Positions 33,182 to 49,795 of a stretch of 64,000 bases of DNA are shown piece by piece. The DNA is taken from NCBI RefSeq assembly GCF_000756385.1, contig NZ_JNFC01000001.1, positions 62,001-126,000 on the forward strand, read 5' to 3'. The position numbers and the translations under genes were made by a program. Position 1 is the first letter of the stretch. Each line of letters begins with the position of its first letter. This DNA comes from Sphingopyxis sp. LC363 (GTDB taxonomy: Bacteria > Pseudomonadota > Alphaproteobacteria > Sphingomonadales > Sphingomonadaceae). The notes under the pieces are model-generated. The model saw nothing but the letters and a program-made list of their open reading frames with translations. It did not search any database and was not told where the DNA came from.

Positions 33182-33270
33182 CCGTTCGTGCTGAGCTTGT
33201 CGAAGCACAGTTTTTCGCCTTGGCGTCGTAAGAAGGAAGAACGGCCCTTCGACAAGCTCAGGGCGAACGA
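33182..33270. repeat. Inverted repeat of the CTTCGACAAGCTCAG family, copy 1
   Basis: Left arm CCGTTCGTGCTGAGCTTGTC followed by GAAGCAC and, after about 30 bases, right arm GCCCTTCGACAAGCTCAGGG followed by CGAACG. A second copy lies at 49221-49371. This is a REP/BIME-like palindromic repeat. Confidence 0.85.
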
Positions 33271-49224: not shown

Positions 49225-49371
49225 AGCATCAAGCTGATAATCGGAATCAAACCCGACCCCGTTTGTGCTGAGCTTGTCGAAGCACCGTCCTTCTTCTGCG
49301 GTGCCAAAAGAAAGAACGGCCCTTCGACAAGCTCAGGGCGAACGGGTTTTAATTAGCGCACGATGCTCTAA
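49221..49371. repeat. Nested inverted repeat, CTTCGACAAGCTCAG family copy 2
   Basis: Outer arms TTAGAGCATC (49221-49230) and GATGCTCTAA (49362-49371) enclose the inner arms GTTTGTGCTGAGCTTGTCGA and GCCCTTCGACAAGCTCAGGG. The stop codon of the YaiI-like gene is inside the outer left arm. It accounts for half of the 297-base gap before the small exported protein. Confidence 0.85.
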
Positions 49372-49420: not shown

Positions 49421-49434
49421 GTGACGGCGATCAC
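49421..49434. promoter_or_regulatory. CRP-type palindrome upstream of the 61-residue exported protein
   Basis: GTGA-CGGCGA-TCAC inside a larger CCGGCG/CGCCGG inverted repeat, 88 bases before the ATG at 49522. Inferred operator. Confidence 0.5.
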
Positions 49435-49521
49435 CGCCGGGTGCGATGCCGTGCGGCATAAGCAGCGCATCGGGAAAGACCCGAACCCAATTCGATGACT
49501 TTGAACCGATTCTGAAAGGAA

Positions 49522-49707
49522 ATGAAGATGACCAAGAAGATGATCGCCCCTGTCCTCGCGCTCGCCATCCTCGCTTCGGCGACCCCCGCGATGGCGCAGT
49601 CGGCGCAGCCCGCGCAGGGCAGCATCACGGTGACCTCGAACCCGATCCAGATCCTGATCGGCCTGCTGCTCCCCGCCGTGCAGAAGGTGCGCGAAGCCGC
49701 GCGCTAG
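49522..49707 (+). CDS. Tiny exported protein with DUF1559-like C-terminal tail
   Basis: 61 residues. A classic signal peptide (MKMTKKMIAPVLALAILAS, then ATPAMAQ) leaves a mature peptide of about 35 residues: SAQPAQGSITVTSNPIQ followed by ILIGLLLPAVQKVREAAR at the very end. That tail matches, nearly residue for residue, the segment that follows the prepilin helix in planctomycete DUF1559 proteins, which otherwise continue for hundreds of residues. GAAAGGA lies before the ATG. Followed by a strong terminator. The tail is amphipathic and could bind a membrane. Function unknown. Confidence 0.82.
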   Translation: MKMTKKMIAPVLALAILASATPAMAQSAQPAQGSITVTSNPIQILIGLLLPAVQKVREAAR

Positions 49708-49756: not shown

Positions 49757-49795
49757 ACAGCCCTCCCGCCCCTGCGACCCGGGCGGGAGGGCTGT
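49757..49795 (+). terminator. Strong stem-loop after the tiny exported protein gene
   Basis: ACAGCCCTCCCGCCC (49757-49771), nine-base loop, GGGCGGGAGGGCTGT (49781-49795): 15 perfect pairs, followed by CTCGTTTCC. Acts on the plus strand; the minus-strand gene converges from the other side. Confidence 0.85.

Follow-up and report, generated by a model that had tools for sequence, protein, structure and literature searches.

In type IV pilins, the N-terminal helix around the Pro22 kink, together with the charged turn that follows it, packs subunit against subunit. A prepilin-like N-terminal helix also opens the DUF1559 proteins (PF07596, SBP_bac_10). Two published accounts deal with this family: it is described as large and paralogous, of unknown function and apparently restricted to Planctomycetes, with 68 copies in Planctopirus limnophila (PMC10632474), and 74 DUF1559 genes are counted in Rhodopirellula baltica, where the domain is called a family of solute-binding proteins (PMC2754498), a label that differs from the prepilin reading used here. 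The window analysed here, a stretch of 64,000 nucleotides from Sphingopyxis sp. LC363, holds a small gene whose product ends in a segment matching the DUF1559 helix. The gene and its surroundings are laid out as follows (residues numbered from the first ATG):

49421..49434, forward strand: CRP-type palindrome GTGACGGCGATCAC (GTGA-N6-TCAC), conserved in relatives
49470..49484, forward strand: small leader hairpin TCGGG-N5-CCCGA, from aligned leaders
49528..49707, forward strand: coding sequence of an exported-looking microprotein, 59 residues plus stop, from the translation with the start taken from orthologues
49528..49596, forward strand: likely Sec signal peptide, cut after AMA, assigned by eye
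49597..49641, forward strand: linker QSAQPAQGSITVTSN, 15 residues, from the structure model at low pLDDT
49642..49704, forward strand: tail P41-R61, with a helix at 41-60 in the model and N40-P41 before it
49651-49704, forward strand: word ILIGLLLPAVQKVREAAR within the tail, matching the DUF1559 helix
49757..49795, forward strand: terminator-like stem of 15 bp (arms 49757-49771 and 49781-49795) with a weak T run, from the sequence

A preliminary description of this DNA had given the protein 61 residues, as translated from the first ATG at window positions 49522-49707 (MKMTKKMIAPVLALAILASATPAMAQSAQPAQGSITVTSNPIQILIGLLLPAVQKVREAAR and stop). The length is probably 59, with the start at 49528, because in the aligned leaders the orthologues L005, L009 and L016 lack the first ATG. 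The carrier looks Sec-type by eye, as had been proposed: MTKK is followed by a hydrophobic core and by ATPAMA/Q, and this arrangement is kept in the alignment of the microprotein family (A1), where AMAQSAQP persists throughout, with VMAQ in one row. The microprotein is probably Sec-exported, and a cut between AMA and Q would likely leave a mature protein of about 36 residues. In the structure model, helices occupy residues 8-19 and 41-60, residues 20-40 have no regular structure, and the linker QSAQPAQGSITVTSN, at low pLDDT (block means 51 and 55), is probably disordered; the tail is modelled better (block means 86 for 41-50 and 83 for 51-60) than the model as a whole (66). The C-terminal half of the tail is amphipathic, with a moment of 0.45 over LLPAVQKVREA, and the hydrophobic stretch, with some 10 residues, is on the short side for crossing a membrane. 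Comparison with solved structures gave two matches, the best at E 0.12, which is not meaningful, and no family of Pfam or NCBIfam came above its cut-off. The TrbC/VirB2 pilin family (PF04956) was considered and rejected: its match (17.7 bits, E 0.0041) lies below the cut-off of 27.9 and covers residues 2-43, mostly signal peptide and linker.

Both the CRP-like site and the 15-bp terminator stem of the preliminary description are present and conserved in relatives. Of 36 distinct loci, 35 carry GTGA-N6-TCAC at -80 to -117; the sole locus without it, L139, comes second in a tandem pair, behind L015, where the site is present. From this pattern we infer that CRP binds there and controls the gene. 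The arms of the leader hairpin are invariant in 12 of 12 aligned leaders, hence without covariation; the hairpin forms in the predicted leader fold, and the whole-leader z of -1.19 is unremarkable. Downstream, the terminator stem is kept in the alignment of relatives. An Rfam scan (E up to 1) returned ten sub-threshold matches, most of them on the upstream inverted repeat. A REP-like element, CTTCGACAAGCTCAG, occurs in the window as two inverted pairs (33191-33261 and 49268-49336; 4 matches against 0 expected by shuffling), one pair lying just upstream of the microprotein gene.

Homologues in related genomes, on which the earlier proposal had been made to depend, are frequent in the genus. The microprotein matches at E < 1e-16 in 21 of 36 genus genomes (its own included). 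When 80 genus genomes were scanned with a DNA pattern for GLLLPAVQ, 43 had it, and one had the backward control. Thirty of these genus loci were opened, 13 pattern-positive genomes being left unopened at that step, and 29 hold the microprotein family, the other (L127, the gene of L108) encoding another protein; one named relative is L021, from a Sphingopyxis MAG. Beyond the genus, none of 24 genomes of other genera gave a match below 1e-3. A search of 396 genomes of the order gave matches of E 1.4e-29 or better in six, all of them from the genus, and otherwise weak and mostly partial ones, of which one from another genus (L112) covers positions 1-57 at E 3.3e-5; among 240 genomes of the class, the own genome alone matches at 1e-4. 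A protein of another genus of the family, L160, has the same layout as the microprotein.

Across 35 distinct DNA copies, 13 of the 15 tail codons examined vary synonymously, and the protein changes solely by I-to-V (2), V-to-I (1) and E-to-D (3) replacements. As judged from these sequences, the microprotein is under selection as a protein and the gene is real, since it is conserved in the genus, varies synonymously in the tail and keeps its upstream site and terminator. A chance ORF or an annotation artefact would suit a short frame with no family above cut-off, but the conservation in the genus with synonymous variation and the conserved control elements make it practically negligible. A mere remnant of transfer, offered earlier as one reading, likewise falls short of explaining why about half of the genus retains the tail while its codons vary synonymously. 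The gene can nonetheless be lost, as 37 of the 80 genus genomes lack the pattern and genome G003 holds a decayed copy (L359), around which the CRP-type site and the terminator are kept. That decayed copy lies downstream of the end of a DUF188-like gene, with transposase-like ORFs nearby by eye. Two genomes carry tandem pairs of the gene (L015, L019), and the second copy at L019 has a diverged tail, AYLIGILLPAPQVPRDSGNR. Plasmid carriage was sought with the microprotein, which matched one plasmid record only (34% of the query, E 0.7), and with the tail, which matched five at E 0.3-5, namely three planctomycete DUF1559 genes and two Rhizobium secretion-system genes.

The preliminary description had likened the last 18 residues, which are as given there, to the segment following the prepilin helix in DUF1559 proteins. 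For comparison, DUF1559 genes were taken via PF07596 from 25 Planctomycetota genomes, 13 of which match, and the starts of 20 high-scoring genes were fetched from each of two genomes, G686 (Gemmataceae, as judged by L032) and G778. A prepilin pattern extracted a helix from 57 of 70 loci, the other 13 being dropped, and the profile was made of 46 distinct helices chosen without regard to the tail. Searched against 24,816 six-frame ORFs of the window and other loci (2.15 million residues, with some redundancy), this profile matched the window tail at 30.2 bits, E 4.1e-7, over mature pilin positions 13-32, and the best of 27 matches to reversed decoys reached 9.1 bits, E 0.76. The profile comparison, proposed earlier as a check against the chance likeness of amphipathic helices, thus came out in favour of the tail. 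The best ungapped match of a single DUF1559 helix agrees at 17 of 18 residues in a comparison set that was fetched by motif and is biased accordingly; in a set of 86 helices, most were fetched by GLLLPAVQK, which makes agreement at positions 18-26 uninformative.

The tails of the genus speak a particular dialect of this helix. GLLLPAVQKVR is found in 19 of 20 sampled DUF1559 helices of G686 and LLLPAVQQAREAARR in 20 of 20 of G778, and the genus tails share the former, Gemmataceae, dialect and not the latter. In some relatives the tail runs on as AAARMK, AAARIK or AASRCRC, in register with pilin positions 33-36; Y15, A15, D29 and P32, found in some genus tails, are absent from the DUF1559 set. 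We consider convergence on a common amphipathic helix very unlikely. Such an origin would be in keeping with a tail that is helical, amphipathic and short, and also with its start: ahead of the word stands a Pro preceded by N, G, D, S or E in 21 of 22 A1 rows (two of the 22 being the same protein) and in 14 of 16 rows of an alignment of Algoriphagus proteins (A3), a beginning not seen in the DUF1559 helices, which implies that the helix start was made anew. Against it are the distance between the match and its reversed controls, all at E 0.76 or worse, the matching of one dialect, and run-on residues that keep in step with the pilin. Descent of the tail from a planctomycete DUF1559 prepilin-like N-terminal helix of Gemmataceae dialect is most likely, because of the profile E value, the single dialect and the run-on in register; the Pro-led start would then replace the first half of the pilin helix.

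The microprotein, as its sequence reads, is nevertheless not a member of DUF1559, since three tests of membership gave nothing. PF07596 does not match it at E up to 10. The prepilin motif FTLIELLVV ahead of the helix is absent from the protein and from the family alignment, in agreement with the earlier statement that it has no prepilin cleavage motif and that nothing follows the tail. The protein stops at the helix, and no sign of a DUF1559 C-terminal domain was seen by eye downstream in three frames at six loci. Neither PF07596 nor Hcp finds a match in the own genome, which therefore offers no DUF1559-type pilin with which the tail could pack. In another genome of the same order, G091 (400 contigs), there are eight matches to the tail profile, of which L110 was opened and proved to be a DUF1559-type prepilin; these are possibly binned-in planctomycete DNA. 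A viral origin of the word was considered and rejected: 72 loci of a viral collection that carry it read, in the excerpts, as DUF1559-type prepilins, L257 being cut before the motif.

The same word is found in proteins of other kinds. Algoriphagus lipoproteins carry the tail core in 14 of 69 genomes searched, with L[LV]PA[VI]Q at one place in 16 of 16 aligned copies; a model of one such protein (pLDDT 63) is too weak to interpret. The core also appears in an Anaerolineales protein, a Chloroflexi protein and a 36-residue Thermoanaerobaculia frame, and in several degraded copies in a Phycisphaerales repeat protein. In the microprotein's own bacterial family, the GLLLPAVQ pattern is present in 15 of 397 genomes while about 9 match the backward control; three of the 15 are the microprotein family, eight are exported-looking (L153, L155-L160, L162) and four look unrelated (L150, L151, L152, L154). 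As sequence counts these are weak by themselves in the family outside the genus, and it is the company of the word that stands out. L155 and L156, two of the other sphingomonad proteins, have VGLLLPAVQSAREAARR, as do DUF1559 genes of viral-collection contigs. Relatives of L155 were found in 14 of 199 genomes, with words seen in three of six loci inspected, and L153 matches in two of 249 family genomes, one its own and the other a putative match at E 2.7e-4. The mosaics L156 and L153 gave no plasmid match at E 0.1.

To examine this company we fetched 15 regions of 12 kb and used the 11 around GLLLPAVQ proteins. FG-GAP-type words (e.g., GDVNGDG, GGPHVxVF) occur in seven of the 11 sphingomonad word proteins and Hcp-type words (e.g., KGES, HKDWI, TLKRG) in four, against none of 1,667 other ORFs of the same regions with words of either type; these controls are six-frame ORFs of at least 45 residues, not genes, and the word expressions were written after the proteins had been viewed, so that p values are not to be taken literally. 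By Pfam, Hcp is matched by L106 (6e-10) and, below cut-off, by L153 (5.5e-4), and FG-GAP only below cut-off, in the word proteins; the Hcp words of Algoriphagus are weak by Pfam (one of 16 members, E 0.024), and G686 has no Hcp match. A further word, DLL(I/V)VNNGDGSDF, is shared by L155, L157, L188, L194 and L276, and a scan of 249 family genomes lists its pattern in three and the backward pattern in none. L155 and L156 have the same kinds of neighbours by eye in two genomes of one genus, and one has DLLIVNNGDGSDF where the other has GGGPHVRVFDG; L157 and L158 (the latter the gene of L112) likewise lie near like genes, with neighbours compared by eye, and bear different words. Words therefore seem to differ between loci that look orthologous. 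Elsewhere among these genomes, L192 (G529) is a sphingomonad FG-GAP repeat protein with an apparent PEP-CTERM end, and G683, which holds the word-bearing repeat protein L025, has six T6SS_HCP matches side by side (L163, L166, L168-L171) on one contig, apparently in one frame of 1,053 residues.

Two small sphingomonad proteins, L188 and L108, have by eye a GG-type leader, and in both a DUF1559 word opens the mature part. In L188 the word directly after the leader is ADGSVKFIRDSIN, identical at 12 of 13 residues to a word of a DUF1559-type gene, and 30 of 158 prepilin ORFs hold a word like it; the idea that the helix word alone travels from DUF1559 is refuted by this case. L108 starts with IGLLLPAVQKVREAAA after its GG. 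These two double-glycine-like leaders, with the DUF1559 word right behind them, and the amphipathic C-terminal half of the tail would be understandable if the mature, roughly 36-residue protein or a helix released from it acted on other cells like a microcin or a signal. We think this improbable, as inspection by eye of the ORF lists surrounding the gene and its relatives revealed no immunity or exporter gene, and as words of the FG-GAP and Hcp types are not membrane-active in kind. Alternatively, a Sphingopyxis ancestor may once have captured a DUF1559 fragment, fused it to a signal peptide and tamed it into what is now a generic membrane-active or structural peptide, all other word proteins being separate accidents. 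The Gemmataceae dialect with its variable run-on to position 36 agrees with such a single event, and so does the near confinement to one genus, L160 being the lone look-alike seen outside it. It would, however, need many like accidents to account for the same word in Algoriphagus, Chloroflexi, Anaerolineales and Phycisphaerales, and for the sphingomonad company with Hcp- and FG-GAP-type words, and we regard it as unlikely.

The explanation we prefer, although we are evenly divided on whether it is right, is that of a portable pilin-helix segment on a probably Sec-exported, CRP-regulated carrier, kept for its packing or binding surface. The ORF would encode a functional microprotein, exported by Sec under CRP control, whose mature part would be a short flexible linker and one helix of about 20 residues from a DUF1559 prepilin-like protein. 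As a portable word, the helix would retain the stretch of the pilin with the Pro22 kink and the charged turn that comes next, and it would most likely act outside the inner membrane by similar packing, be it against a copy of itself, some other pilin-like helix, the surface of a membrane or perhaps polymers of other bacteria. Of the three readings offered in the preliminary description, a reusable motif comes closest, given the word in several unrelated proteins, and convergence is disfavoured; within the reading that came closest, the reusable word stands while the role given to DUF1559 as its reuser appears less likely than that of DUF1559 as its source, from which the word would have moved outward.

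The microprotein would then be one member of a wider exported-looking set with words of DUF1559, Hcp and FG-GAP. A more far-reaching proposal, which we consider doubtful, is that bacteria of several phyla draw on a common vocabulary of short words to make exported proteins, every word being the conserved core of some other family; it would comprise Hcp words, FG-GAP words, two words of DUF1559 and DLLIVNNGDGSDF. As guest segments, swapped between orthologous loci, these words would attach to, or disrupt, the surface proteins and polymers of those families, and the Sphingopyxis microprotein would be the minimal case of one carrier and one word. The literature searched contained no text with LLLPAVQ, LPAVQKVREAA, PAVQAAREAARR or GGGPHVRVFDG, no paper combining DUF1559 and Hcp and no description of word-built exported proteins. 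Very small protein words may travel between bacteria. The usual unit of protein evolution is the domain; here it would be a segment some 15-20 residues long, found in unrelated proteins of several phyla and still bearing its lineage dialect. If this is general, bacterial secretomes would hold a layer of very short portable modules invisible to domain libraries, and a peptide of about 36 residues could serve to probe the role of DUF1559.

Set beside the known systems, the microprotein has in common with DUF1559 the helix at positions 13-32, which some relatives extend to 36, including Gly18, Pro22, Gln25 and Arg28, but it lacks the prepilin motif, the first half of the helix and the C-terminal domain, has a signal peptide and a linker instead, and measures 59 residues where the DUF1559 frames seen mostly have 300-400. 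With type IV pilins and type II pseudopilins it shares the N-terminal helix segment and the Pro22 kink, whereas it has no visible prepilin processing site or globular domain. Like class II bacteriocins and microcins, it is a small, probably exported peptide with an amphipathic helix; unlike them, its leader is Sec-like and not of the GG type, no family match is above cut-off, and no immunity gene was recognised by eye near its gene. Its nearest company is that of the sphingomonad word proteins L155, L156, L157, L158, L160, L108 and L188, which are short, exported-looking and bear the same or a companion word, but differ in their loci, their linkers and mostly in their other words, L160 alone being built to the same layout.
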